Assembly (NCBI GenBank): GCA_958295745.1
Contig: OY282370.1
Span: 2,144,548-2,208,547 of the forward strand
Origin: an uncultured Acidimicrobiia bacterium
GTDB taxonomy: Bacteria > Actinomycetota > Acidimicrobiia > Spongiisociales > Spongiisociaceae
DNA: 64,000 bases
Reading direction: 5' to 3'
Below are positions 7,569 through 45,119 of this stretch, in pieces. The translations under genes were made by a program, and so were the position numbers. Within the stretch, counting starts at the first letter, position 1. Each line of letters begins with the position of its first letter. The notes beneath the pieces are model-generated. The model made no database searches. It was not told where the DNA came from and saw only the letters and a program-made list of their open reading frames with translations.

Positions 7569-9182
7569 ATGGATTCTTCGAGCAACAGGCGCCGCCCCCG
7601 GCGTAGAAGGGTTCCGGCCGCCTTCCGGCTGTGGGTCGTTCTGATCGGGGTGGCCGCATCCGGATGTATGGCGCAGGCGGTGGTGGTGGTCGGGGAGGCG
7701 CCCCTCCCGTCGGCGAGCCCCGTTCCCATGGTGAAGCTCCTGGTTACAGATGACGACGGGGTGCCGTTGGACGGCGCCCGGGTGATGACCGGGGATGCCC
7801 GGATAGCCACCGACGATGCCGGTCTGGTCGGCGTCCGCTGGGAAGGAGAGCAGATATCGATCTCCGTAGAGGCAACCGGATTCTTCCCCGGCGCCGTGGC
7901 GGTGGACGAGTTCCAGGAGGAACCTCTGGAGCTGGTGCTTCGCCCTGTGGTGCTGCGCGGCGCGGTGCTGGATGCGGGGGGCTTCGGGTTGCCGGGAGCT
8001 TCAGTCTCCTTGGGGGGCAACGAGGTGGTGACCGACCGTTCGGGCCGGTTCGAGATCAGGCGGGCTGTGGCTGGAACCATCACCGTCAGCCGTCCGGGCT
8101 GGCAGAGCGCGGAGTTCGCATGGGACGGCGAGATGCTGGTCACCGAGATCGAGATACAACCCCGGTTCATCAGAGGATTGCATGTTGCTTTCTCGGCCTT
8201 CATCGACCGTGAAAAGTGGCGGGAACTCTTGACAGTCGCCGAGGAGACGGTCGTGAACGCCCTGGTGATCGACGCCAAAGACGAGTCAGGCCGGGTGTTC
8301 TACGAGACCGGAGTGGGTTTGGCCAACCGGATCGGTGCGGTCGATCCGTTGTTCGACATGGACCGGGTGGTAACCGAAATGGACAGTCGGGGCCTCTACA
8401 AGATCGCCCGCGTCGTGGCCTTCCAGGACCCCATAGCCGCCCGGGCCGAGGTCGATATGGCAGTCTTCGACACCGCCACCGGAGAACCCTTCCGCAAGGG
8501 CAACCAATATTTCCTCGATCCTACCGACCGCCGCGCCCGGGCCTACGCGCTCGATCTGGCCGAAGAGGTATGCGGTGCGGGTTTCGACGAGGTGCAATTC
8601 GACTACGTGCGGTTCCCCGACGGCTATCCGGATTCCGCCGTTTTCGACCTGGGGGATACCGAGGAGGTGCGGGTCCAGGCCATCGCCGGTTTCCTGCAGG
8701 AAGCCGCCGACCGCCTGCATCCGCTCGGATGCGTGGTGGCCGCCGACATCTTCGGCTTCATCACCTCGGTAGTCGGCGATGGCGGGATAGGCCAAGAGAT
8801 TGGCGCTTTGTCCACGTCGGTCGATGTCCTATCGCCGATGGTGTACCCCAGCCACTACTCGAAGGGTTGGTTCGGGTTCGACAAACCCAACGACCACCCC
8901 GGTGCGGTGGTCGGCCAAGCCCTCGACGCCGGGTTGGAGCGGCTAGAAGGTCCCGCCGTCGTGCGGCCCTGGCTGCAGGACTTCTACTACGACCCGTCGC
9001 AGGTGAGAGAGGAGATCGAGGCGGCGGAAGCCCGGTCGCTGGGGTGGATGCTGTGGAACGCCAGGAGTCGTTTCCAGACGGATGCCCTGGACGCCGCCCG
9101 CCCGATCTCCGACGCGCCGACCGGGGAAGGCAACGCCGGGACCGCCGCAGGACCGGACTCACCGGACCCCTCCGGGCAATGA
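7569..9182 (+). CDS. lipoprotein with carboxypeptidase-regulatory-like domains and DUF4015 glycoside-hydrolase-like barrel
   Basis: From ATG 7569 the N-terminus is arginine-rich, followed by a hydrophobic stretch and a lipobox (AASGC), so the protein is probably exported and lipid-anchored. Next come beta-rich segments resembling carboxypeptidase-regulatory-like (Ig-fold) repeats (LLVTDDDGVPLDGARVMT; GAVLDAGGFGLPGASVSLGG). The C-terminal half resembles DUF4015: RGLHVAFSAFIDREKWREL, VNALVIDAKDESGRV, DEVQFDYVRFPDGYP, LSPMVYPSHYSKGW. That family has a TIM-barrel fold like glycoside hydrolases; its substrate is not established. Earlier in-frame ATGs (7488, 7524) would put an atypical extension before the signal peptide. 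The stop overlaps the next start as ATGA. Confidence 0.8.
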   Translation: MDSSSNRRRPRRRRVPAAFRLWVVLIGVAASGCMAQAVVVVGEAPLPSASPVPMVKLLVTDDDGVPLDGARVMTGDARIATDDAGLVGVRWEGEQISISVEATGFFPGAVAVDEFQEEPLELVLRPVVLRGAVLDAGGFGLPGASVSLGGNEVVTDRSGRFEIRRAVAGTITVSRPGWQSAEFAWDGEMLVTEIEIQPRFIRGLHVAFSAFIDREKWRELLTVAEETVVNALVIDAKDESGRVFYETGVGLANRIGAVDPLFDMDRVVTEMDSRGLYKIARVVAFQDPIAARAEVDMAVFDTATGEPFRKGNQYFLDPTDRRARAYALDLAEEVCGAGFDEVQFDYVRFPDGYPDSAVFDLGDTEEVRVQAIAGFLQEAADRLHPLGCVVAADIFGFITSVVGDGGIGQEIGALSTSVDVLSPMVYPSHYSKGWFGFDKPNDHPGAVVGQALDAGLERLEGPAVVRPWLQDFYYDPSQVREEIEAAEARSLGWMLWNARSRFQTDALDAARPISDAPTGEGNAGTAAGPDSPDPSGQ

Positions 9183-9949
9183 ACAGCATCGCGGGCGCCG
9201 CACCCGATCGTCACGGCGGGGAGGGTCGGTCGACGGCCGGCGCCCATGGAGAAGACCGAAAAGACGAGGCTTTCCGCCTGCTCCAGGAATCGCTGGTCGA
9301 ATGCCGGAGATGCCCGCGGCTGGTCGCCTGGCTCGAACAGGTGGCCGCAAACAAGCGCGCTTCCTACGCCGATCAGGAATACTGGGCCCGTCCGGTCCCT
9401 ATGCTCGGTTCCCGCACCGCCCGGCTGTTGATCGTCGGACTGGCGCCCGGCGCCCACGGATCCAACCGTACCGGCCGTATGTTCACGGGTGACCGCTCCG
9501 GCGAGTGGCTGTTCCGGGCCATGTATCGGGCCGGTTTCGCCAACCAGCCCGCAGCTGTGAGCCGGGATGACGGATTCGAGCTGCGAGACGCCGCCATAAC
9601 CGCCATCGTCAGGTGCGCGCCGCCCGCCAACCGCCCCACCCCCGGGGAGCGGGACGCCTGCTCAGGATGGCTGGAACGCGAGCTCGACCTGTGCGATCGG
9701 GTGCGGGTGGTACTGGCCTTGGGCGGCATGGCTTTCGACCAGACCCTGCGGCTGGGTAGGCGGCGGGGTTGGGAGGTCCCCCGCCCCAAGCCCCGGTTCG
9801 CGCACGGGGTAGAGGTAGGGTTGGGCGCCGACGCCCCCGTTCTGGTCGGCAGCTACCATCCATCCCAGCAGAACACCTTCACCGGACGGCTCACCGAGGA
9901 GATGCTGGACGGCGTGTTCGCCAGGGTCTCCCGTCTCATAGGGGGCTGA
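9179..9949 (+). CDS. uracil-DNA glycosylase, family 5 (UdgB-like)
   Basis: This 256-residue DNA repair enzyme would excise uracil, and in this family other deaminated bases, from DNA. Motif 1 (GLAPGAHGSNRTGRMFTGD) and the late motif (SYHPSQQNTFTGRL) are diagnostic for family 5. Cysteines in VECRRCPRL, VRCAPPANRP and the following DACSGW segment fit the family's 4Fe-4S cluster. The start ATG at 9179 shares bases with the previous stop. The reading frame is open far upstream as a shadow of the lipoprotein gene; the family-like sequence only begins after this ATG. It may depend on SUF for its cluster. Confidence 0.9.
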   Translation: MNSIAGAAPDRHGGEGRSTAGAHGEDRKDEAFRLLQESLVECRRCPRLVAWLEQVAANKRASYADQEYWARPVPMLGSRTARLLIVGLAPGAHGSNRTGRMFTGDRSGEWLFRAMYRAGFANQPAAVSRDDGFELRDAAITAIVRCAPPANRPTPGERDACSGWLERELDLCDRVRVVLALGGMAFDQTLRLGRRRGWEVPRPKPRFAHGVEVGLGADAPVLVGSYHPSQQNTFTGRLTEEMLDGVFARVSRLIGG

Positions 9950-16879: not shown

Positions 16880-17113
16880 ATGAACTGTTTCTGGTGCGGT
16901 AGACCTCTCGGGTACGTCCACGGCCACGCCGCCTGCCTGGACGGGCGTTGCCCCATGTTCGGCCTCAACCAGGCGGAATGCTGCAGCGGGGAGACCATGG
17001 AGGCGGGTGGAATCCCGGCTCTCGGTGTCGTCCTGCCAAGGGGGTCCCGAGAATGCCAAAAAAACGGGGGCCTTCGCGAAAAATCTTTGGTGGATTGGCG
17101 GGGGTCTGACTGA
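16880..17113 (+). CDS. small zinc-ribbon-like protein
   Basis: From ATG 16880 this 77-residue protein begins MNCFWCGRPLGYVHGHAACL and continues with CPMFGLNQAECCSGE. The CxxC pair, the following His/Cys residues and the CP-FG-NQ-CC pattern look like a compact metal-binding ribbon. GGGAGAAGG lies about ten bases upstream of the ATG. The reading frame is open further upstream, but that part is low-complexity. The C-terminal 40 residues show no motif. It is divergent from clpB and just upstream of the coiled-coil gene. Function unknown; a redox or metal role is conjecture. Confidence 0.55.
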   Translation: MNCFWCGRPLGYVHGHAACLDGRCPMFGLNQAECCSGETMEAGGIPALGVVLPRGSRECQKNGGLREKSLVDWRGSD

Positions 17114-17137
17114 TCGCCTGCTGGTAGACTACCGAGC

Positions 17138-17671
17138 ATGGACCTACAGACCCTATACCAGTTGGCCGTGGTGGTGCTCATCGCCGTCATCGGTTGGCAG
17201 TTTCGTATGTTGTTGCACGACCGTAGGGCCAACCAGGCGTTCCAGCGTGAGTCAACCCAGAGGATGGACGCCATTCAGCGTGAGACGCTCCAGAGGATGG
17301 ACGCCATTCAGCGTGAGACGCTCCAGAGGATGGACGCCATTCAGCGTGAGACGCACCAGAGGATGGACGCCATCGCCGCCGACCTCCGTGAAGAGATGAG
17401 GAAGGGCTTCGAAGATGCCAGGATGGACACCCAAAACCTCCGTGAAGAGATGAAGGAAGGTTTCGCGGAGTTGCGTGGGGAGATGAAGGAGGGCTTTGCG
17501 GAGTTGCGTGGGGAGATGAAGGAGGGCTTCACGGAGCAGGGCAGCAAGATCGATAAGGTAGACGACAAGGTCGAAGATACCCGTAAGCAGGTAAGTGGTA
17601 TAGCAGAGCGGGCGGCCTGGATCGGCGGCCGCATAGGGGAACCCTCCCCCTACAGCCTCGCCGCCGACTGA
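17138..17671 (+). CDS. membrane-anchored coiled-coil protein with hendecad repeats
   Basis: I recognise no family. The 177-residue product starts with one membrane helix (LYQLAVVVLIAVIGWQF) and continues as a charged coiled coil. Four 11-residue units of the type QRETLQRMDAI occupy residues 36-79, and three units of EMKEGFAELRG follow from about residue 104. Eleven-residue periodicity fits a hendecad coiled coil. A final segment (SKIDKVDDKVEDTRKQVSGI) resembles the tail of small proteins annotated as DUF1640-like or phage coiled-coil proteins, but I cannot assign it. The repeats are near-perfect at DNA level, implying recent expansion. Confidence 0.6.
   Translation: MDLQTLYQLAVVVLIAVIGWQFRMLLHDRRANQAFQRESTQRMDAIQRETLQRMDAIQRETLQRMDAIQRETHQRMDAIAADLREEMRKGFEDARMDTQNLREEMKEGFAELRGEMKEGFAELRGEMKEGFTEQGSKIDKVDDKVEDTRKQVSGIAERAAWIGGRIGEPSPYSLAAD
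17243..17535 (+). repeat. two in-frame 33-bp tandem arrays
   Basis: Array 1 has four units (17243-17275, 17276-17308, 17309-17341, 17342-17374); the middle units are identical. Array 2 has about three units starting at 17447, 17480 and 17513. Both unit lengths equal 11 codons, so copy-number change keeps the reading frame. Confidence 0.85.
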
Positions 17672-17727
17672 CGGCCTTCATTTCCTCGGTTTCCCTGCCT
17701 TCGGATATCTCTCTCGGCTGTTGATCC

Positions 17728-17798
17728 ACCCTCGCTGACTAGGCATTTCACCATTGACCGGCGGGCCGACGGGGTTTGTTCCCAGCACCCCCTCCTAG
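17728..17798. repeat. convergent-gene repeat element, partial copy
   Basis: CCCTCGCTGACTAGGCATTT is followed by GACCGG, GGGCCG, CAGCACCC and CCTAG in the same order and spacing as the right part of the element at 13958-14070. The left terminal arm is not visible. As in the first copy, the CTA at its right edge is the reverse-strand stop codon of the adjacent minus-strand gene. Confidence 0.55.
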
Positions 17799-18493
17799 AT
17801 CGGGTTCGTCGGCAGGCGGGGGAAGATGTTGTTGACCTGCAGCCAGTGCCGTCCTCTGAATTCTCTGGTCAGCCCGACCGAGATAAGACACCCGTCGAGC
17901 CGCCCTTGGAGTTGTTCGATTTTGCCGGAGGCGGGAGTCCGGTGATCGTCCTTCCACAACCTCAGGTCGTTGACCTTGATCGCTATGAAGCCCAGGTCGG
18001 GATCTGTTAACCGCAGACGCACCTCTGGCTTGTTTTTATACCCGGTTTCTTCGGCCAATTCGACTTCTCCCGGACTGAGGACGCCCAGCGACGCCCGCCC
18101 TCGGTCCGCGGGGAGGAAGGCCGCGGTTCGCGATTTTGCTGTCAGCTCGGGGCCGAAGACGGCCCTGAGCGAACCCTCGGCCGCCTTTTCCAGCATTTCC
18201 CAGGATCTCTCAGGTGGAAGACGCCCCAGCCTTTTCACCCGGTCGGGGCGGAATACGACATTTTCGACTTGCGGCGGCATCGGGCGAGGTTCGATCCACT
18301 CCAGGTCGACCACCCTTCGCAATTCGAACGGTCCTCCATTGCAAGCGAGCAGGTCGCGCCCCAGCTGCTCGTAACCGCCGCCGTATGCAGGAGAATCAAG
18401 CACCGGGCGCCAATGCCGTCCGCTCCCGTCCATACCGGCGACACAAATACGGCGTCTCCGCATTCTGGTCAGGTGGTTGATGACTATCTCCAT
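17795..18493 (-). CDS. dual OB-fold domain-like protein, operon with DUF488 genes
   Basis: The 232-residue product starts MEIVINHLTRMRRRRICVAG followed by a GRHWRPVL motif, the pattern I associate with the dual-OB-containing family of putative nucleic-acid-binding proteins. The later part (KNKPEVRLRLTDPDLGFIA, RLDGCLISVGLTREF, RHWLQVNNIFP) fits a second beta-barrel. I chose the ATG at 18493, eight bases after the DUF488 stop, rather than the open frame above it. It is the last gene of a three-gene operon. Family assignment is from memory of the N-terminal motif and is moderate. Confidence 0.6.
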   Translation of the reverse strand: MEIVINHLTRMRRRRICVAGMDGSGRHWRPVLDSPAYGGGYEQLGRDLLACNGGPFELRRVVDLEWIEPRPMPPQVENVVFRPDRVKRLGRLPPERSWEMLEKAAEGSLRAVFGPELTAKSRTAAFLPADRGRASLGVLSPGEVELAEETGYKNKPEVRLRLTDPDLGFIAIKVNDLRLWKDDHRTPASGKIEQLQGRLDGCLISVGLTREFRGRHWLQVNNIFPRLPTNPI

Positions 18494-18500
18494 CGGCTTC

Positions 18501-18938
18501 TCAAAGATGGACGGCTTCGACTTCCCCCCAGGTTCGGTCCAGGTACTCCACCACCAGACGGCGGTGGCATTCCTCCGGGGTGAACTCACTGCATAACAAG
18601 ACGGCCCGTTGCTCGAACCACTCCCGGGGGATTTGGTTCTCCACCTCCCGGGTGGTTATCAGGTCCAGGTACTCCAGCTCGTATTCTTCCCAGGTCATCT
18701 CCTTCTTGCGGTAGGCTTTGAGCATCTCGCCGGTGGGCGCCAGCAGAGGCTTATGTTCATAGCGGGCGCCGATCAGCTCCTGCAGGAAGTAGGGCAGATC
18801 GCGGTGCTTCGTGAACCCGGCCATCTGCGAGGTGTTGTTGAGCCGCACATCCACCAGCAGCTCGATCCGGTGGTTTTTCAACGGCTCGAAGAACTCGGCT
18901 GCCGTCTTTTTTGCAAAACCGGTTGTGAAGATTTCCAT
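18501..18938 (-). CDS. DUF488 domain protein (second copy)
   Basis: The 145-residue protein has the DUF488 core: N-terminal FTTGFAKKTAAEFFEPLK, LLVDVRLNNTSQMAGFTK, and the C-terminal LLCSEFTPEECHRRLVVEYL with the conserved C-x(n)-CHR element. DUF488 proteins are small and of unknown biochemical role; the conserved Asp-Val-Arg and Cys-His-Arg suggest an enzyme or a nucleic-acid-related function. Its start lies inside the upstream DUF488 gene (61-base overlap), indicating coupled translation. The two copies differ strongly, so this is an old duplication or a heteromeric pair. Confidence 0.88.
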   Translation of the reverse strand: MEIFTTGFAKKTAAEFFEPLKNHRIELLVDVRLNNTSQMAGFTKHRDLPYFLQELIGARYEHKPLLAPTGEMLKAYRKKEMTWEEYELEYLDLITTREVENQIPREWFEQRAVLLCSEFTPEECHRRLVVEYLDRTWGEVEAVHL

Positions 18939-19510
18939 GTGGTTCTCCCTGGTTCTCCGAACAGAGTGGGTGCAGTCATGGACATCAAGTCATTGTAGGC
19001 AGGGACCTGCCTAGTATGTTCCAGAGAGCCGTTCTTCCCGATGTGGCCCACCCGCACCCCCATGTCCTCCAGCACCTTGGTGATGAGCAGGTAGCGGTGG
19101 CATTCGGACGGGTCCCCTTCGCTGCACATCATAATCGTCCGCGAAGTTCCGGCCTCCTCGCGTAACCTCTCCACACCATCGAGAAACACCGGCCAGGAGG
19201 CCATCTCTCCATATAGCACTCGGCCTTCCTGGTCGTAGAACCGGTCGTCCGGCGGGCGTCCGCCCAACTCCTCTCCCAAGAAAACATACCGGATGCTTTT
19301 CGCCGCCAATCGGGACTCCAAGGCCCGCCGGTTGAAATGAGGGGAGTATCGGGAATACGGGGCTGACCGGACATCCGCCAGCACTTCGATTCCGTACTGC
19401 TCGAGCAACTCCAAGAACCGTTCCGGCGAATGGTCGGAATGGCCGATCGAATAGAGAGCGGGTTCCTGCGGCACTGCTCGATCCTCCCGTCTGGGCCACC
19501 CTACTAACAT
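18878..19510 (-). CDS. DUF488 domain protein (first copy)
   Basis: This protein of up to 210 residues carries the classic DUF488 layout: YSIGHSDHSPERFLELLEQY, VLADVRSAPYSRYSPHFNR, the middle LGGRPPDDRFYD segment and CSEGDPSECHRYLLI. The last 20 residues (PGRTTWKSSQPVLQKRRQPS) are encoded in the overlap with the next gene and are not family-like. The true start may be a GTG a few codons in (before PQEPALYSIGH). It is the first gene of the minus-strand operon and is divergent from the metallo-hydrolase gene. Confidence 0.88.
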   Translation of the reverse strand: MLVGWPRREDRAVPQEPALYSIGHSDHSPERFLELLEQYGIEVLADVRSAPYSRYSPHFNRRALESRLAAKSIRYVFLGEELGGRPPDDRFYDQEGRVLYGEMASWPVFLDGVERLREEAGTSRTIMMCSEGDPSECHRYLLITKVLEDMGVRVGHIGKNGSLEHTRQVPAYNDLMSMTAPTLFGEPGRTTWKSSQPVLQKRRQPSSSSR

Positions 19511-36991: not shown

Positions 36992-37387
36992 ATGCCAGAA
37001 ACCAAGGCTCTGATCAGCAAGGACGCCCCCGAACCGCGCGGGCCCTACCCGCACGTGCGGATCGAAGGTGATCTGGTTTGGGTGACAGGCCAGATCGGGC
37101 GGGTCCCCGATACAGGCGACTTCGTGGAGGGCGGCTTCGAGCCGGAGTTCCGCCAAGCCATCACCAACCTCGAGCGGATACTGTCCGAGGTAGGCGCCTC
37201 GCTGGCCGACGTGGTGCACACCTGCGTGCAGTTCGTAGAGGAGGACGACCTCGATGCCATGAACCGCATCTACGGCGAGCGCTTCCCGATCCCGCGCCCC
37301 GCCCGCACCAGCTTCGGCGCCGCCTTCCTGTGGAAGGGCGCCAAGGTGCAGATCGACGCGGTGGCCCGCTTCCCCCACGCCCGTTGA
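36992..37387 (+). CDS. RidA/YjgF/Rut family protein
   Basis: The 131-residue trimeric-type protein contains the RidA pattern: GPYPHVRIEGDLVWVTGQIG, an amphipathic helix (FRQAITNLERILSEVGASLADVV), and PARTSFGAAFL with the conserved arginine. Archetypal RidA hydrolyses reactive enamine/imine intermediates; here the usual Glu near the end is replaced by Asp in KVQIDAVARF, so it may belong to another Rid subgroup. AAGGAGG sits just before the ATG. It is the last high-GC gene before the A+T-richer island. Confidence 0.9.
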   Translation: MPETKALISKDAPEPRGPYPHVRIEGDLVWVTGQIGRVPDTGDFVEGGFEPEFRQAITNLERILSEVGASLADVVHTCVQFVEEDDLDAMNRIYGERFPIPRPARTSFGAAFLWKGAKVQIDAVARFPHAR

Positions 37388-37512
37388 CCAGTTTTTCTGA
37401 TACTGCGTTGAGTATGGGTGCCGAGTTGCGAAATCTGAAGCCAGCTCTGCCCGTCACGGCGACAATCTCCTGGCTAAGCTGGGGATCCCACCAGATACGA
37501 AGGGTTCCGTAG

Positions 37513-38646
37513 ATGGTCGAAACCGCCGAGGAACAGGTGACGGCATCCTTGGATGATGTAGTGGACATTCCAGCCGAGGAGCTGCGCTTCGATAGCAGTA
37601 ACCCGAGGCTGTTCCTTGAAAATGACCTGTCGGATGAGGAACTTGTTCTTATTCTCTGGCGAGAATTTGCCGTTGATGAGGTAGCCCTATCTATCGCTAA
37701 CAATGGTTATTTCCGTCATGAGCCGTTGTTCGTTGCTCGCGAGAGTGGACGACTCATAGTTGTAGAGGGCAACCGACGCTTGGCTGCTGTTCGTCTGCTG
37801 GTAGACGGTGATCTCCGCAAGAGGGTCAAGGCAACCGACCTACCACAGATCACTGAGGCACGTGAAAAGGAGCTCAAAGAGCTACCTGTAGTAATCTGCC
37901 AACGTGAAAATGTATGGCAATATATCGGTTTCAAGCATGTCAATGGTCCGCAAGCTTGGCAGTCCTATGCAAAGGCCCAGTATACCGCTTGGGTGCATAA
38001 TAATCTCGATGTTTCCCTGGATAAGATCGCTCGTAGTATCGGAGACAGACATTGGACTGTTCGTCGTCATTATCGTGGACTTATGATTCTCCGACAAGCA
38101 GAACGTTCAGGCGTGTTTGATTTGGAAGACAGATGGAAAAAGCATTTTTCCTTTTCGCATCTTTATACTGGACTGGATTATCAGAATATTCGAGAATTTA
38201 TTGGGATTGATAATGAAACGAGCTATCGCCCTGATCCAATACCAAAAAAATATCTTAAGAATTTGGGTGAATTATTTCTTTGGTTGTATGGTCAGAAGTC
38301 CACTAATACAATGCCTATAGTACAGTCTCAAAATCCTCATTTACGTCAGCTAGTCTCAGTGATAGGCAACGGTGCTGGTCTTGTTGCACTCAGGCGAGGC
38401 CTTTCACTTGATATTGCTCTAGATTTCAGCAAAGGAGATGAATTATTATTCAAGGGAGATCTCCTTGAAGCTCGTAGATTTCTCCAAAAGGCACGCGGTA
38501 GACAGCCGACTGGTGATTTGGGTGATCCGGGGACCCTCCGGACTGCGAACGAGATACTTGACCTTGCAGAACGACTTGTCATAGACATGGAACAACATCG
38601 ACGAGAAGAGCGAACGTCCCGCCGTAGTCGCCGCGCGGTGTCGTGA
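37513..38646 (+). CDS. ParB/sulfiredoxin-like domain protein of the A+T-rich island
   Basis: The 377-residue product starts with a ParB N-terminal-like domain: IPAEELRFDSSNPRLF, NGYFRHEPLFVARESGRL, then VVEGNRRLAAVRLLVDGD, the conserved ParB-type nucleotide-binding box. A helical middle (WQSYAKAQYTAWVHNNLDVS, then a helix-turn-helix-like RSIGDRHWTVRRHYRGLMI) resembles the KorB/ParB DNA-binding part. It is not a chromosomal ParB; no parA is near. The stop and the next start overlap as GTGA, so it works with the following gene. Codon use shifts to A/T third positions within this gene. Confidence 0.75.
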   Translation: MVETAEEQVTASLDDVVDIPAEELRFDSSNPRLFLENDLSDEELVLILWREFAVDEVALSIANNGYFRHEPLFVARESGRLIVVEGNRRLAAVRLLVDGDLRKRVKATDLPQITEAREKELKELPVVICQRENVWQYIGFKHVNGPQAWQSYAKAQYTAWVHNNLDVSLDKIARSIGDRHWTVRRHYRGLMILRQAERSGVFDLEDRWKKHFSFSHLYTGLDYQNIREFIGIDNETSYRPDPIPKKYLKNLGELFLWLYGQKSTNTMPIVQSQNPHLRQLVSVIGNGAGLVALRRGLSLDIALDFSKGDELLFKGDLLEARRFLQKARGRQPTGDLGDPGTLRTANEILDLAERLVIDMEQHRREERTSRRSRRAVS

Positions 38647-39596
38647 ATACCTCTCTTCAATCACCTGCTGCAGCAAACGGACCAAGCCAACTTGCTGATT
38701 GGATAGAGCTCAAAGCACTCTTTAGTGATGATCGCAATGCTAGCCTGCAGGACCTCGTAGCAGAACTTCGCCGTGATGGATCGTTTGACGCAGTATTAGA
38801 AGAAGATAACATATATGAACTAACCGATTCCGGTGGTGAAACCACTGAACGTATTGCGAATGATGCCTTCTCAGAAATCGAGGATAGAAATACAGCTACC
38901 GGATCGGGATATCCCTTTTTCTTAAATGGGCAGTATATACAGCTCAAATCTTCAATAGAAGCCAATGATTCTACCTATATTTTTTTGCTACTATTGAGCT
39001 ACTTTGGTGCTGATGCTGGAAGATCGGCACAAGTACATCCGGAGCGAGACTTTGAAGACATCAGTTTTGAAGCGGCTAAAGGCTATTTCGGGCATAATTT
39101 GCATGATAAATCATATCTCTTTGCCTATCCTAGGAGAACGAAGGAAAAAGAATTTACCAAAGCGATAAATAAACTGACAAAGTTACTCTATGAAGGTGGG
39201 GGTGCTAGTAGAACTCCATCAGCTAAGCATAAGAAGGATGCTGGTCTAGACCTGGTTATTTGGCACGGATTTGTTGACCAAAGACCTGGCCAACTTATAG
39301 CCTTTGGCCAGTGCACAATAAGTAAAAACTGGAGACACAAAGTCCACGATCTACCGCAAACAATAGACTGGTGTAGCTTGTGGATGTTAAAAATCCCTGC
39401 TGTTCCTCCGGTTCGAATGTTTTTTATTCCTCACCGACCTGACAACGACGGTCAATGGCTGGAAGCTTCTAGATACGGCGGTATCATATTGGATCGTTGC
39501 AGAATAGCATACCATGCACCGATGATACCTGATCATGTGTCTGCCAGTTGTGCAAGATGGATAGACACCGTCCTAAATACATATGTACATGCGTAG
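38643..39596 (+). CDS. candidate PD-(D/E)xK-like nuclease paired with ParB-like protein
   Basis: No family is recognised with certainty. The 317-residue protein has a predicted alpha-helical N-terminal half and a segment KKDAGLDLVIWHGF (residues 197-210) followed by GQLIAFGQCTISKNWRHK (216-233). Asp in a first strand followed by Gln-x-x-x-x-Lys in a second resembles the D-(E/Q)xK site of restriction-type nucleases, though the spacing is not classical. The GTG start overlaps the ParB-like stop. Two DNA methylase genes follow, which supports a restriction or defence role. A+T content is clearly above the window average. Confidence 0.5.
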   Translation: MNTSLQSPAAANGPSQLADWIELKALFSDDRNASLQDLVAELRRDGSFDAVLEEDNIYELTDSGGETTERIANDAFSEIEDRNTATGSGYPFFLNGQYIQLKSSIEANDSTYIFLLLLSYFGADAGRSAQVHPERDFEDISFEAAKGYFGHNLHDKSYLFAYPRRTKEKEFTKAINKLTKLLYEGGGASRTPSAKHKKDAGLDLVIWHGFVDQRPGQLIAFGQCTISKNWRHKVHDLPQTIDWCSLWMLKIPAVPPVRMFFIPHRPDNDGQWLEASRYGGIILDRCRIAYHAPMIPDHVSASCARWIDTVLNTYVHA

Positions 39597-39645
39597 GTTG
39601 CCAAGAGCGGTGAGTCGTTATGACTATGGATAGTCGGTGTGATGC

Positions 39646-40530
39646 ATGAATCCATATAGCGATGAATCGCCGTTCCCGATTTCGTCGATTCCGGCCGCTA
39701 ACGTCGCATCGGTGCCGCAACGTAGCCCTTTACGGTATCCAGGCGGCAAGACCTGGCTGATACCGCATATCCGGAAATGGTTGCGTTCTATGGCGCGCCC
39801 ACCCAGGCTGTTGGTTGAGCCGTTCTGTGGCGGTGCCGTTGTGTCCTTGACCGCCGCGGCGGAGGGCTTGGCGGAGCGATGCCTGATGGCCGAGATAGAT
39901 AAGGATGTGGCTGCCTTCTGGCATGCGGCGCTACACCACGGGCCGGAGTTGCGCGGACAGATCGCCGCTTTCGATCCGTCCCGCGCCGCTGTCGACTTGC
40001 TTGAATCCGATCGCCGCGAAGACGATGTGGTAAGCACAGGGTTTCGGACTTTCGTGTTGAACCGGACCCGGCGCGGCGGGATCCTCGCTCCAGGTGCTTC
40101 GTTGATTCGGTCCGGGGAGAACGGCAAAGGTATCGCGTCCCGCTGGTATCCCGAGACCTTGATCGCCCGGCTAGAAGCGATTGAGGAAAATGCTCACAGG
40201 ATCACCTTCCGTGAAATAGATGGGATGCACTTGCTGGAGGCTAGCGTGGGCGACGAGGATACAGTCGTGTTTGCTGATCCGCCCTATACGGTGGGGTCAA
40301 AACAAGCCGGGTCGCGCCTCTATAGGTATTCGGAGATTGATCATGACCGACTTTTCAGGACTCTCTCCGATTCAAGCGTAGAATTTTTGATGACCTACCA
40401 CGCTTCGCCGGAGATCATTCAGCTCATCGGAGATCACGGCTTCTATGCGGTGACAGTAGCCATGAAGAACACCCACCATGCCCGGATCCCGGAACTGGTC
40501 ATAACCAACCGCCCGATATTTCATAACTAG
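39646..40530 (+). CDS. D12-class DNA adenine methylase (Dam-like)
   Basis: The 294-residue enzyme has SAM motif I preceded by RYPGGKTWLIPHI (residues 30-42), LVEPFCGGAVVSL (56-68) and the catalytic DPPYTVGSK (211-219), the arrangement of Dam and Type II alpha-class N6-adenine methylases. It would transfer a methyl group from SAM to adenine in a short target site. It lies 49 bases after the nuclease-like gene in the same orientation and converges on the nuclease-methylase gene. It may protect host DNA from that gene product or from the nuclease-like protein. Confidence 0.9.
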   Translation: MNPYSDESPFPISSIPAANVASVPQRSPLRYPGGKTWLIPHIRKWLRSMARPPRLLVEPFCGGAVVSLTAAAEGLAERCLMAEIDKDVAAFWHAALHHGPELRGQIAAFDPSRAAVDLLESDRREDDVVSTGFRTFVLNRTRRGGILAPGASLIRSGENGKGIASRWYPETLIARLEAIEENAHRITFREIDGMHLLEASVGDEDTVVFADPPYTVGSKQAGSRLYRYSEIDHDRLFRTLSDSSVEFLMTYHASPEIIQLIGDHGFYAVTVAMKNTHHARIPELVITNRPIFHN

Positions 40531-40567
40531 TAAGTTATCATTTGGTTTACCTTGTGATATCGTCTTT

Positions 40568-43500
40568 TTATGTTAGGTTCATGACCTGATCAACTAGACT
40601 TTCAACCCTCTGGGATTCCTGGTTCGTGCTGAGCCAATCTCGCAAGACCTGCCGAGCTACCTTTACTGATATGGATCCTCCGGATAAAGCTCTATTTTCA
40701 CTTTCTTCAGCCCACCTACTCTGGGCTTGCGAGTGGAGAATCCTGCCCAACGAAGCGAGTTCGGTATGTATAGAGTTCTCGCTATCGTATTCGGGAATGG
40801 GTAATCTCCATAGATGTTTATGTAGATCGCGCGCCCCGAAGGCTCCTCTGGCCATCAAGTCCTCTACATTCTGACGCAATACGCTGCTGTTGATAATGGC
40901 AGCTAGATAATAAGCTTCGTTTAGAGATTCACAATTTATCCAATACAGTTTGGTATCTATCAATATGTCCGGATCGCTCAGAACAGCTGCAGTTGGTTTA
41001 CCTGATGTTGTATATAGTAAACGTGTGCGCATGCTTTTTATTTGATTACTCAGTTTGTTCATGTAATTAAGTTGTTCTATTAGATCCAGAGTGTTGTTCT
41101 GCCCCTTGTGTTTGTTCCATAAATTACACATGGCTTTCCATCGAGCTCGCATTCTCGTTCCTAATGTTCTTGGTTCTACTCCACCTATATTGCCGAGGCC
41201 ATCAGAGAACTCGATTCCTCGCCAACGATTTTGCAAAGGTAGAACTACTTGACGCGGTGCCAGTATTAGGAAGGGGGCGATGGTCTCACCCAGGTGAATA
41301 GAGTAAATATGCTGTTCTTCTATCGGTCCTGAGAGAGGATACAAAGCACTAGAGCGTAGACTCTTCCAAGGATCCTTTTCATGTGGGCTGCGTCTCGGTG
41401 TCACGTTGCATATACCGCTGACAAGGGCTGCCGGTGCCTCTGATACTTCGACAGAAAATAGTAGCCTTGGTACGATGGTAGCACCCTGGAAAGCACGATC
41501 TCCGTAGGGAGACATGAACTCCCTCGATGAGTCCAGCAGATCTATGGTCTCGTGCCGGAAGGGGCCGCCTTGAGGCCCACGCCAGAGATGCCCCTGGTTG
41601 CCTAAGGGGTTGGCTCTATGAGTTCCGTCTGCCTTGATTGCGAATATCACACAGGAAGGAACCGGGAAAAAATCATTCGGCATAATCTTATCAAGATCCC
41701 AAGGCATAAAGTGATTCATATCTACTTCCACAACGCTCCACTCACCCTTTCTCCATTTTGCATACTGTCCTGCTTGGAGAGCGCTGTGAGGCAACACCAT
41801 TCCGATCTTGCCTCCTTGTTTCAAGTAGAGGTCGACACATCGAGTGTAGAACAGCCCTGCTATATCTTGATGAGGGGCGTACCTACCGCCTTGCCAGATC
41901 CTATATAAGTTTTTGCTCTGACTTTCCAATGTTTCACGCAAACTCGCATGGGTTCTTGAGTAGGTGATCCAGGGTGGATTCCCAACGATGGCATCCACCT
42001 TTCCTTCCTCTGTAGACAACCATACAGGACGAACCAAGTTACGGGTGTAGTATGCCCAGATGTGGTTGCGACCTTCGCTGTGAAGATGCTCCATCTCCTT
42101 TACCGTCGCTTCGAGGATGTCTCGATCCAGTCCTGGTGGGATGCCGGCGTCATCCAAAGCCACTGTACCGATTCCGCCTGTTCCGATGGTCTCGGCGATA
42201 CGCAACATGGTTTCGTCGAACCAGTCGCCTTGATCCACGAGGGAACGGGGAAATTGAAGGAGCCTGTGCCGCCCTCCGATTTGGGAAGGAACCGTGATGG
42301 TTACCTGCCTTTCCCCGAGCAGGTTCCCATTGTCGGTCCGTAACTGCAGTGAATCTCCAAGATAAACAGGGACTGTTATCTCACCTTCCTGTGCTGCCGC
42401 CTCAATGATGATTTCGCGAGCGGCGAGCACCCAGGTAGCGCGGGCGAGATGGACGGATACCGGGTGAACATCCACACCGATAATAGACTGTATAAGCCCA
42501 TCCAGAATGCGGTTGGGTTGCCAACCTTTTGTTTTCGCCGCAACAATATATTGGTGAATGGCAGCTCGTAGGAAGGTGCCTGACCCACATGCTGGGTCCA
42601 GAACGCGTTTACCAATTGGCTGGGGAACGACCTTCTTCACAATGGCTTCGGCAAGCCAGTCAGGAGTGTAGTATTCACCTAATCTTCGGCGGTCTTCGCT
42701 GGGCATAACCGACTGATACAGCACTCGAGCGATGTCATAATCAGCGTTGGTCCAATCGAAGCCCGAGACTCTTGTGGCAAGGTCAACTACCCAGTCTACG
42801 CCCTGTTCTACTTCAGCAGGCCAGATGAAAAAATCTGATTCGACCACCCCTCTTATTCCGGTATTAGCCACGAAGATATGTCCGCCTAAAAGCCTCTCCG
42901 GATTGGGTGCCGAGTTCTGACGAATATCGATCCCGAAGGCGCTTTGTACTGCAAGACCAACCACGGCAGATAGATATGTGTGTCTCAAGAAGAGCCGATC
43001 GAGATCGGTCTCTTCTTCTACCACCTCTCCTAGAGCGGTTGCGAGCAGATTACGCCAGAGATTCCTCTTGACTCTTATCGACGGATCCTCTTTGTGCTGT
43101 TCATACAACCTCTCTAGAGAGGCCATATCGCGTTCGAAGTAAGGTCCACCTCCTAGCCGATCCCGTACCTTATCTTCGCTTGGATCGCTTATCGCTTGCT
43201 CAAGAAGGCCTAGTTCATCACGTAGCCATTCGAATAGAGGAATACCGTCGTCCACGCCGTTCATCTCGAATCCGTAGGGTGGCCGGGTAATGATTTCTGG
43301 CCTTCCATGAACTCGAAGAAGCCAATACCTTCCGTCGGTCAATATCCCCAGCCTTCGAGGGTTCCCGGCTACGATAGAGTTTTGCATGTAACCGTCGAGC
43401 TGTTGCACGTTTTCCGGGTCGGGAGTGAATCCAGGTCTGGTGCCGATTCGCCGTTTGGTCTCGATGATCAGATTGGTGCTTTGGAGATCGATCCGGTTCC

Positions 43501-43672
43501 GCTCCCGGTGCAGGTCTGCTTCGGTAGCGATGCCCGTGAACACGAGAAAGTTGCCGACGGCGGCCCGAATATCCGCCTCCGGTGCGTTCTGTCGATGGCG
43601 ATCGATCATCAACCTGACGGTGTCCAAGAAAGCGGACTCCTCAGGATCGAAGTGATTCTGTCGATCGGTCAT
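40568..43672 (-). CDS. Type IIG/Eco57I-like restriction endonuclease-methyltransferase fusion
   Basis: The 1034-residue protein has an N-terminal nuclease-like motif (Asp62 in RIDLQS, then Glu71-x-Lys73 in LIIETKRR), a helical spacer, an N6-adenine methylase core with motif I DPACGSGTFL (359-368) and catalytic NPPW (565-568), and a C-terminal region that probably recognises DNA (RLLYTTSGKPTAAVLSDPDI, GARDLHKHLWRLPIP). Cleavage, methylation and recognition in one chain is the Type IIG layout. It is convergent with the Dam-like gene, only 37 bases apart. It is A+T-rich compared with both flanks, pointing to transfer. It looks intact. Confidence 0.88.
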   Translation of the reverse strand: MTDRQNHFDPEESAFLDTVRLMIDRHRQNAPEADIRAAVGNFLVFTGIATEADLHRERNRIDLQSTNLIIETKRRIGTRPGFTPDPENVQQLDGYMQNSIVAGNPRRLGILTDGRYWLLRVHGRPEIITRPPYGFEMNGVDDGIPLFEWLRDELGLLEQAISDPSEDKVRDRLGGGPYFERDMASLERLYEQHKEDPSIRVKRNLWRNLLATALGEVVEEETDLDRLFLRHTYLSAVVGLAVQSAFGIDIRQNSAPNPERLLGGHIFVANTGIRGVVESDFFIWPAEVEQGVDWVVDLATRVSGFDWTNADYDIARVLYQSVMPSEDRRRLGEYYTPDWLAEAIVKKVVPQPIGKRVLDPACGSGTFLRAAIHQYIVAAKTKGWQPNRILDGLIQSIIGVDVHPVSVHLARATWVLAAREIIIEAAAQEGEITVPVYLGDSLQLRTDNGNLLGERQVTITVPSQIGGRHRLLQFPRSLVDQGDWFDETMLRIAETIGTGGIGTVALDDAGIPPGLDRDILEATVKEMEHLHSEGRNHIWAYYTRNLVRPVWLSTEEGKVDAIVGNPPWITYSRTHASLRETLESQSKNLYRIWQGGRYAPHQDIAGLFYTRCVDLYLKQGGKIGMVLPHSALQAGQYAKWRKGEWSVVEVDMNHFMPWDLDKIMPNDFFPVPSCVIFAIKADGTHRANPLGNQGHLWRGPQGGPFRHETIDLLDSSREFMSPYGDRAFQGATIVPRLLFSVEVSEAPAALVSGICNVTPRRSPHEKDPWKSLRSSALYPLSGPIEEQHIYSIHLGETIAPFLILAPRQVVLPLQNRWRGIEFSDGLGNIGGVEPRTLGTRMRARWKAMCNLWNKHKGQNNTLDLIEQLNYMNKLSNQIKSMRTRLLYTTSGKPTAAVLSDPDILIDTKLYWINCESLNEAYYLAAIINSSVLRQNVEDLMARGAFGARDLHKHLWRLPIPEYDSENSIHTELASLGRILHSQAQSRWAEESENRALSGGSISVKVARQVLRDWLSTNQESQRVESLVDQVMNLT

Positions 43673-43758
43673 GTCTCCGGTCTCCGGTCGGATTCAGCGT
43701 CATCGTACCCCAGGGGGTGTGACATGTCTCCGAAAGTTCGGCGCCGTTCCGGAGATGG

Positions 43759-44040
43759 TCAGGGCGGGAGAACCGCCGGCGACCGGGCCACTACCCCCGT
43801 CACTCCTTTGACTCGCCGCAGGAGCAGGGCTTCTATTCCGGCGGTCAGGGTTACTACCGACAGAGGGCAGGTTCCGCAGGCGCCCAGTAGTTCTACGGCC
43901 ACCACTCCGTCTTCGTCTACTTCCAGAAAAACCAGATCCCCGCCGTCGGCTTGCAGGGCGGGGCGCAGGAAGGCGATCGCCTCCTGCAGGGCGTCGAGAT
44001 CGACCGGCGTCCGGTCGGCGGTGGAGACATCCGCGGGCAT
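43759..44040 (-). CDS. NifU-like C-terminal domain protein (Fe-S carrier)
   Basis: The 93-residue protein is a lone NifU C-terminal domain: LRPALQADGGDLVFLEV and GACGTCPLSVVTLTAGIE, the CxxC being the cluster-binding pair. It would carry or hand over Fe-S clusters built by the SUF machinery at the other end of the window. ATG 44040 overlaps the upstream stop as TGATG, so it is co-translated with a metabolic gene rather than with suf genes, which is unexpected. An ATG six codons upstream exists but overlaps more. Confidence 0.9.
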   Translation of the reverse strand: MPADVSTADRTPVDLDALQEAIAFLRPALQADGGDLVFLEVDEDGVVAVELLGACGTCPLSVVTLTAGIEALLLRRVKGVTGVVARSPAVLPP

Positions 44041-45119
44041 CAGAAGACCTCTATCCATCGTCCGGCGCCGGCGGAGATCGCCAGGTCGTAGACCAAGGAG
44101 GCCACCGCCGCGTCCAGGGCGGGCATGCCCATGTGGGTCATTATGGTTCGCTCCCGGTCGTCCTCACGGCCCGGTTTGCGGCCCGATACGATCTCGGTGG
44201 CTATGTCGGCGTGTATGTCCGCCCGGGACAGGGCCTTCGGCTCGAGGCACCCGAGCCGGCCCACTTCGTCCCCTTCGATCCAGGCCAGGTCCCGCCCGTA
44301 CCATCCCACCACCCACTTGTCGAACCCGGCGGCGCATCCCGGATCGACATCGCAGAACCCGTTGGCGGCGCAGACATGGGCGCCCTCCGGCACCCAGGCC
44401 TCCATAAGCACAGGTTGCCTGGCGGTGGTTACCACGCAGATGATGTCGGCATCGCCCACCGCCGTCTCCACGTCCGGGGCCGCCGAGATCGGAACCCCGA
44501 TCCTGGATTCCATCTCCTCGGCGAAACGGGCCAGTCCTGCGGGGTCGATGTCGAAGGCGGACACCTCGGCGATATCGAACAGCTCGTTGAGGGCCAGCAG
44601 GTGGGTTCGGCCTTCGTTGCCGCATCCGACGACCGCCACGCGGGAGGATTCCGGGCGGGCCAGGAACTTGGCGCCCACCGCCGAATGGCCGCCGGTGCGC
44701 ATGTTGGTGACCGACGTGCCGTCCACCAGCGCCAGCGGCATCCCGGTCTCTATGTCGGTCACCAGATCGAGGGCCGAGATGGCCGGGAGGCCCCGGAGGG
44801 GATTGTTCCGAAAGCTGCTCAGCCACTTCACGGCCGCCCGTCCGATAGGGCGGACCATGGCCGGAAACGACTGCACGACGCCGTGTCCGTAAGGAGGTTC
44901 CGGCCCCGAGCGGTCCGTCACGTAGAGGTTGGCCGGATTCTCCTGCTCCACGAGACCCTCGCCCACCCAGCGGAAGGTATCCAGGCAACGCTCCAGGCAG
45001 GCCGCCGGAGTGAGCAGGGCTTCCACCTCATCGCGGGACACCACCAGGATCTCGCCGGGGCGTGAGGGCGCTTCGGTTGCCGAGGACGGCGGCGATCCGG
45101 AGGACGCTTCCACGGTCAC
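44040..45119 (-). CDS. ornithine cyclodeaminase/mu-crystallin family protein
   Basis: The 359-residue product matches the OCD family: AAVKWLSSFRNNPLRGLP, ALVDGTSVTNMRTGGHSAVG, and the NAD-binding GxGxxG in VAVVGCGNEGRTHLLAL, followed by DADIICVVTTARQPVLMEAWV. Members act as cyclodeaminases, imine reductases or amino-acid dehydrogenases. The GTG start at 45119 overlaps the DHDPS-family stop (GTGA); the long open frame above it is a shadow of that gene. Coupling to a DHDPS-like lyase suggests a pathway through a cyclic imine or keto acid. Confidence 0.88.
   Translation of the reverse strand: MTVEASSGSPPSSATEAPSRPGEILVVSRDEVEALLTPAACLERCLDTFRWVGEGLVEQENPANLYVTDRSGPEPPYGHGVVQSFPAMVRPIGRAAVKWLSSFRNNPLRGLPAISALDLVTDIETGMPLALVDGTSVTNMRTGGHSAVGAKFLARPESSRVAVVGCGNEGRTHLLALNELFDIAEVSAFDIDPAGLARFAEEMESRIGVPISAAPDVETAVGDADIICVVTTARQPVLMEAWVPEGAHVCAANGFCDVDPGCAAGFDKWVVGWYGRDLAWIEGDEVGRLGCLEPKALSRADIHADIATEIVSGRKPGREDDRERTIMTHMGMPALDAAVASLVYDLAISAGAGRWIEVF

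Follow-up and report, generated by a model that had tools for sequence, protein, structure and literature searches.

An A+T-rich insertion carries four genes

The window, the whole 64,000-nucleotide stretch of DNA from an uncultured Acidimicrobiia bacterium that was analysed here, includes an A+T-rich island of approximately 6.4 kb (37388..43758, no strand assigned) located between a RidA-like gene (36992-37387) and a NifU-like gene (43759-44058). Measured in 1-kb windows, GC content drops from 0.66-0.69 into the range 0.44-0.57 over approximately 37.4-43.7 kb and then rises again, and GC3 is 0.41, 0.35, 0.66 and 0.51 for the four island genes P1 through P4, versus 0.70-0.89 for the genes that flank them. 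These values confirm the drop and recovery in base composition from which the island was originally predicted. Elsewhere in the window, there is a weaker second GC dip (to about 0.60) at 17000-19500.

The island is a true insertion. In 10 relatives from the same family, the matches to the RidA-like and NifU-like genes are spaced by approximately 105-440 bp, compared to 6.37 kb in the window, and DNA-level similarity to these relatives ends near position 37,368 and restarts near position 43,772. These limits place the predicted coordinates correctly to within about 100 bp. One of the relatives, genome G004, is empty at this site but holds a cassette copy of its own (locus L184) on a different contig. 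As had been predicted, the borders are marked by neither a tRNA nor a direct repeat: there is no tRNA gene in the window, and no direct or inverted word of at least 9 bp is common to both borders.

The first two genes encode a ParB-like protein (P1) and a nuclease-like protein (P2), and are coupled through a GTGA sequence wherein the GTG start codon of P2 overlaps the TGA stop codon of P1, exactly as proposed. They are followed by a Dam-like methylase (P3) and a convergent Type IIG-like enzyme (P4), and both of these assignments hold, with the proteins passing their Pfam cut-offs. P4 (1034 aa, 40568..43672, - strand) passes for N6_Mtase and Eco57I, matches REase_MTase_IIG with an E value of 1.9e-70, and carries a nuclease motif (ETK at 71) and an N6 methylase motif (NPPW at 565) in one chain, as is characteristic of Type IIG enzymes. 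We considered P4 as a component of a system with P1 through P3, and rejected it because no homologue adjoins the P1-P2 pair in the loci compared. Relatives of P4 are present at E <1e-40 in one of 197 other genomes of the phylum (G236), a genome that is not listed as having P2. P4 is a passenger of the same island in its own right, and the original prediction likewise grouped only the first three genes into one possible system.

P1 is predicted to have the architecture of ParB

P1 (377 aa, 37513..38646, + strand) is recognized by its fold match and conserved motifs. No Pfam family passes for this protein. However it is covered nearly full length by PHROG 3694 (unknown function; E 1e-70), and residues ~16-177 match the PADLOC PD-Lambda-5_A models with E values down to 1.7e-13. 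An AlphaFold2 model built from 57 sequences (pLDDT 92) predicts a ParB/Srx NTPase fold at residues ~15-145, a helix-turn-helix (HTH) region at ~150-200, and a long C-terminal helix at 339-376. The best matches of this model among solved structures are Noc, ParB and KorB, with the HTH region included, at a Foldseek E value of 7e-7 for Noc and a Z score of 10.7 over 91 residues for ParB from M. xanthus. Across all 57 sequences, the NPR (30-32) and EGNRR (85-89, including R88 and R89) motifs, H142 and W149 are invariant, the last two within an H142xxG..W149 segment; the residues of the predicted NTP site are included. As modelled, P1 has a complete ParB architecture in which the ParB/Srx fold retains its P-motif arginine.

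In other proteins of the ParB fold, nucleotide binding was lost when a conserved arginine of the P motif was changed to alanine (PMC12704722). The nucleotide that such proteins use is not deducible from sequence (PMC12704722), and this holds for P1 as well. Judging from its fold and conserved residues, P1 may bind an NTP and load onto DNA, as was originally proposed.

P2 is predicted to be a nuclease

P2 (317 aa, 38643..39596, + strand, GTG start) has no match in Pfam or NCBIfam and no convincing match in PADLOC, and the PHROGs that match it (14650 and 3984) are both of unknown function. A model based on 64 sequences (pLDDT 90) predicts two domains. Residues 11-105 align to winged helices, and for residues 106-305 the top VIA alignments are to nucleases: MspJI (Z 7.9), Nt.BspD6I (7.6), FokI (6.7) and Card1 (6.6), along with Can2, HamA and NucC. 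These matches are moderate, with Z scores of 5-7.9 (all below 8) and Foldseek E values above 0.05. In independent support, a profile of P2 sets its D..Q segment on MspJI residues 323-358, though with a weak E value of about 1, and a PDB sequence search yields nothing besides this segment. BFVD provides no significant fold match.

The putative active site is strongly conserved. D199, D203 and Q223 are identical in 64 of 64 sequences, and a lysine is present at either position 225 or position 233 in 63 of 64; in the window's protein, the predicted domain also has W230 and R285. Only four sequences have the lysine at 225, its expected position two residues after Q223, and K233 is missing from three of them; of the 60 others, 59 have K233. 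Such a shift of the lysine from a strand to the next helix would be the behaviour expected of a PD-(D/E)XK site, and as these four are near neighbours on the P1 tree, the lysine likely moved in a single event. We therefore predict that P2 consists of a winged helix (~11-105) joined to a PD-(D/E)XK-type nuclease domain (~106-305). The proposal that the 317-residue protein is nuclease-like is supported by the nucleases that lead the fold list together with the conserved D..Q..K site, although Z scores remain below 8, too low for the fold match to count by itself.

P1 and P2 form an inherited pair

When IMG/VR was scanned separately with P1 and with P2, using no methylase as a seed, both scans led to the two genes side by side, P1 before P2. 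Together, IMG/VR, phages, plasmids and genomes yield 137 adjacent P1-P2 pairs (54 representatives at 70% identity), whose genes usually overlap or are separated by no more than 12 bp. Unpaired pieces amount to two P1 and three P2 genes, mostly at contig ends or in broken genes. Moreover, distances among P1 sequences correlate tightly with those among P2 sequences (Mantel r 0.93 and 0.84). By these sequence comparisons, the pairing is obligate and the two genes are inherited as one unit.

Two loci have unusual arrangements. In L056 (7956-10097), an insertion-sequence-like element with transposase open reading frames at 8674-9836 (minus strand) splits P2 and leaves P1 and an m5C methylase intact; this P1 is near-identical to that of Pseudomonas phage D14A. 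Loss of the nuclease-like gene with retention of the methylase would be in keeping with a restriction-modification system. In the faecal phage contig MT835579 (L005:4722-9561), two different P1-P2 pairs face each other, neither with an adjoining methylase, and an m5C enzyme is encoded 2 kb upstream of them.

The methylase is linked to the pair and exchanged beside it

Of 53 divergent representatives, 46 have a methylase gene no more than 100 bp from the pair, compared to 5% of random intervals on the same contigs. The finding that would have refuted the original prediction, a pair usually apart from DNA methylases, was therefore not made. Downstream methylases occur on either strand, and upstream ones share the strand of the pair. 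Two further m5C genes are found 475 and 863 bp from their pairs, and four pairs (L009, L007 and two in L005) have no methylase within 1 kb.

The 46 partner enzymes belong to three unrelated classes: 23 are m5C methylases, 17 are D12 (Dam-like) enzymes, and six, which carry an SPPY motif, are of the PF01555 type. The SPPY enzymes were also considered as Dam-like, but Pfam assigns sampled members to PF01555. On the P1 tree, a quick tree with long branches on which all such counts depend, there is one change between m5C and amino-methylases, at least four between D12 and PF01555, and at least 10 in gene layout. Thus, the methylation type tracks the pair despite rearrangement, as protection would require. 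Distances between P1 and the methylase correlate at only 0.59 and 0.22, well below the values for P1 and P2; the restriction half is thus kept together while the methylase is exchanged.

The window appears to capture one such exchange. P3 (294 aa, 39646..40530, + strand) has intact PFCGG and DPPY motifs, passes the Pfam cut-off for MethyltransfD12, and matches the PADLOC PD-Lambda-5_B model with an E value of 8.8e-43; we infer that it is the modification subunit. In the nearest relatives of the window's pair, L184 (in G004) and L004, whose P2 proteins are 58 and 57% identical to that of the window, the slot of P3 is occupied by a PF01555-type methylase, which in L184 overlaps the stop codon of P2. 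The D12 enzyme of the window starts 49 bp past P2, and its GC3 of 0.66 is unlike the 0.35-0.41 of P1 and P2. Given the different class in the same slot and the unlike GC3, P3 appears to have been swapped in for another methylase. Among these three loci the HTH region of P1 is conserved at 0.73-0.76, which is higher than for the rest of the protein, and this better conservation would fit a target site that is unchanged after the exchange. The original prediction that the first three genes may be one system is therefore supported for the pair plus a methylase, but not for this methylase specifically, which seems to be a replacement.

The gene set recurs in phages, plasmids and bacteria

By sequence, the P1-P2-methylase set is a recurring unit of phages, plasmids and bacteria. 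In Escherichia phage WPhi (AY135739; L140:96-3266), orf98 encodes the ParB-like protein, orf96 the nuclease-like protein, and mth a convergent cytosine methylase. The three genes carry annotations that do not join them in a common system. This set belongs to the same family as that of the window, and differs by its m5C methylase on the opposite strand. In the P2-like phage 12474III and in E. coli prophages, the set is located between the portal and replication genes, a position in P2-like prophages that is a reported defence hotspot (PMC9519451). A near-identical WPhi-type set is present in 103 of 5,426 complete E. coli genomes. A further 36 genomes match at 90-95%, among the matches listed over the methylase only, and the single genome of this kind that was inspected has its own P1-P2 pair beside the methylase.

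Outside phages, the pair adjoins a methylase in the window, L184, L004, and the plasmid-collection records L008 and L010. The cassette of L004 (1917-10010), from a metagenome-assembled bacterium, has, as judged from their sequences, genes for a tyrosine-integrase-like protein, an HTH-peptidase (ImmA/IrrE-like) and a second DNA methylase as neighbours, which suggests a mobile element. On a Neorhizobium plasmid (L007:1-9667), the pair is clustered with Dcm pieces, a DUF262 protein, a Z1-domain protein and another PD-(D/E)XK protein.

A probable restriction-modification system with a ParB-type NTPase

We consider it about two-thirds probable (0.66) that P1, P2 and P3 constitute a restriction-modification system in which a ParB-type NTPase and a separate nuclease make up the restriction half, and that the cassette probably cleaves incoming DNA on which the host's methyl mark is absent. 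Two general features of such systems are present: a putative nuclease gene is linked to a methylase, and the catalytic motifs of P3 and those predicted for P2 are intact. Specifically, we hypothesize that P3 methylates a short site across the host genome, and that P1, a ParB-type NTPase with an HTH, binds DNA bearing the same site, with NTP binding or hydrolysis serving as a switch. P2, a free nuclease with its own winged helix, would then be recruited or licensed by P1 and would cut DNA in which the sites are unmethylated. In such a scheme the methylase would be an exchangeable partner of a constant pair. A more specific version, which we put forward tentatively and hold to be somewhat less probable than its opposite, is that the cassette represents a separate kind of restriction-modification: a nucleotide-switched ParB-type clamp is loaded at unmethylated sites and recruits a free-standing nuclease, and the protective methylase can be exchanged among three unrelated classes while the pair remains unchanged.

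Adjacency to a methylase alone calls for caution, as is illustrated by MspJI, the best structural match of P2. This enzyme was at one time taken for an ordinary restriction enzyme owing to its neighbouring methylase, but it cuts methylated DNA (PMC3874153). P1-P2 might likewise cut foreign methylated DNA in the manner of Type IV enzymes, leaving the adjoining methylase with some other use for the element. This is improbable, because the methylases present at 46 of 53 loci, drawn from three classes, would make self-targets, and P2 shows no SRA-like domain, its residues 11-105 aligning instead to winged helices. The pair could also be a stand-alone defence module, with the methylase as a separate anti-restriction gene of phages that is brought near by common hotspots. 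Many copies do occupy the P2-like prophage hotspot, and some pairs have no close methylase. Nevertheless, adjacency extends to the five loci outside phages, and the methylation type tracks the lineage of P1, with its single change between m5C and amino-methylases, making this account quite unlikely. Most improbable is a conventional ParB role for P1, in partition or regulation, with unrelated neighbours. The top fold matches of P1 are indeed ParB, Noc and KorB, but it scores 15.7 bits against a cut-off of 58.45 for the ParABS partition family (TIGR00180), and P2 nearly always follows it.

An unlikely alternative is licensing by the mark of the host: the ParB-like NTPase would be stimulated on binding modified DNA and would in turn switch on the nuclease, which would attack invader DNA lacking the modification. 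In restriction by SspE and GmrSD, an NTPase domain of the ParB/Srx superfamily is coupled to a DNase (PMC4619093, PMC13251355), the GTPase of SspE is stimulated by the phosphorothioate marks of its host (PMC13251355), and such licensing predicts equal adjacency to methylases. However, these proteins combine DUF262 (DGQQR) with HNH, whereas P1 has EGNRR and keeps a canonical ParB HTH region, P2 is predicted to be of the PD-(D/E)XK type, and the cassette includes a dedicated base methylase. Pfam searches of P1 and P2 at E values up to 10 find neither DUF262 (DGQ(Q/H)R) nor HNH. Furthermore, each of the three methylation classes would require its own matching sensor. The reading in which P1 directs P2 to unmethylated sites is therefore preferred.

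Relation to known systems

In Type II systems, a small nuclease gene sits beside a protective-type methylase whose class is variable. The cassette likewise has a small putative nuclease gene adjoining a methylase of varying class, but its constant ParB-type NTPase subunit falls outside Type II as generally defined.

Among the closest known systems is PD-Lambda-5 (Vassallo et al., 2022; PMC9519451), which PADLOC detects with the PD-Lambda-5_A and PD-Lambda-5_B models. This prophage-borne system has a component A whose ParB-like N-terminal domain aligns with P1 over ~180 residues, and a component B that is a D12 methylase, as is P3. In the window's family, by contrast, the ParB-like protein and the nuclease-like protein are encoded separately, and an m5C or PF01555 enzyme can take the place of the D12 methylase. 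All P1 matches to the PD-Lambda-5_A models end near profile position 183, leaving residues ~200-480 of component A unmatched, and membership in PD-Lambda-5 was rejected because P1 is without this C-terminal part. P2 was compared with one relative of PD-Lambda-5_A, the component A homologue AS1_27 of Marinobacter phage AS1, and this comparison with a single sequence gave a probability of 0.1. The C-terminal part of the AS1 protein has no match among solved structures, the phage has no separate nuclease gene between components A and B, and an IMG/VR scan for PD-Lambda-5_A relatives found none. By sequence, the P1-P2-methylase set thus resembles PD-Lambda-5 but seems to have a different effector. 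PADLOC may label the window locus PD-Lambda-5 from P1 and P3, overlooking P2.

P1 relatives also align to the first half of PDC-M38A. This protein was considered as a P1-P2 fusion, but it yields no P2 match, and a genome search gave mainly short, unspecific matches. In the literature searched, we found no prior description of the P1-P2-methylase gene set.

Current defence annotation would probably leave the nuclease gene hypothetical or mislabel the cassette as PD-Lambda-5. If the proposed mechanism is true, an NTP-switched ParB clamp would join the few modes by which restriction enzymes are regulated. With the restriction pair constant and the methylase repeatedly changed beside it, what keeps a restriction enzyme and its methylase in step can be tested directly. 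A version of the cassette is present in the E. coli phage WPhi, which makes it testable at once, and the ParB-CTPase fold would gain a defence role that can be studied with a classical laboratory phage.
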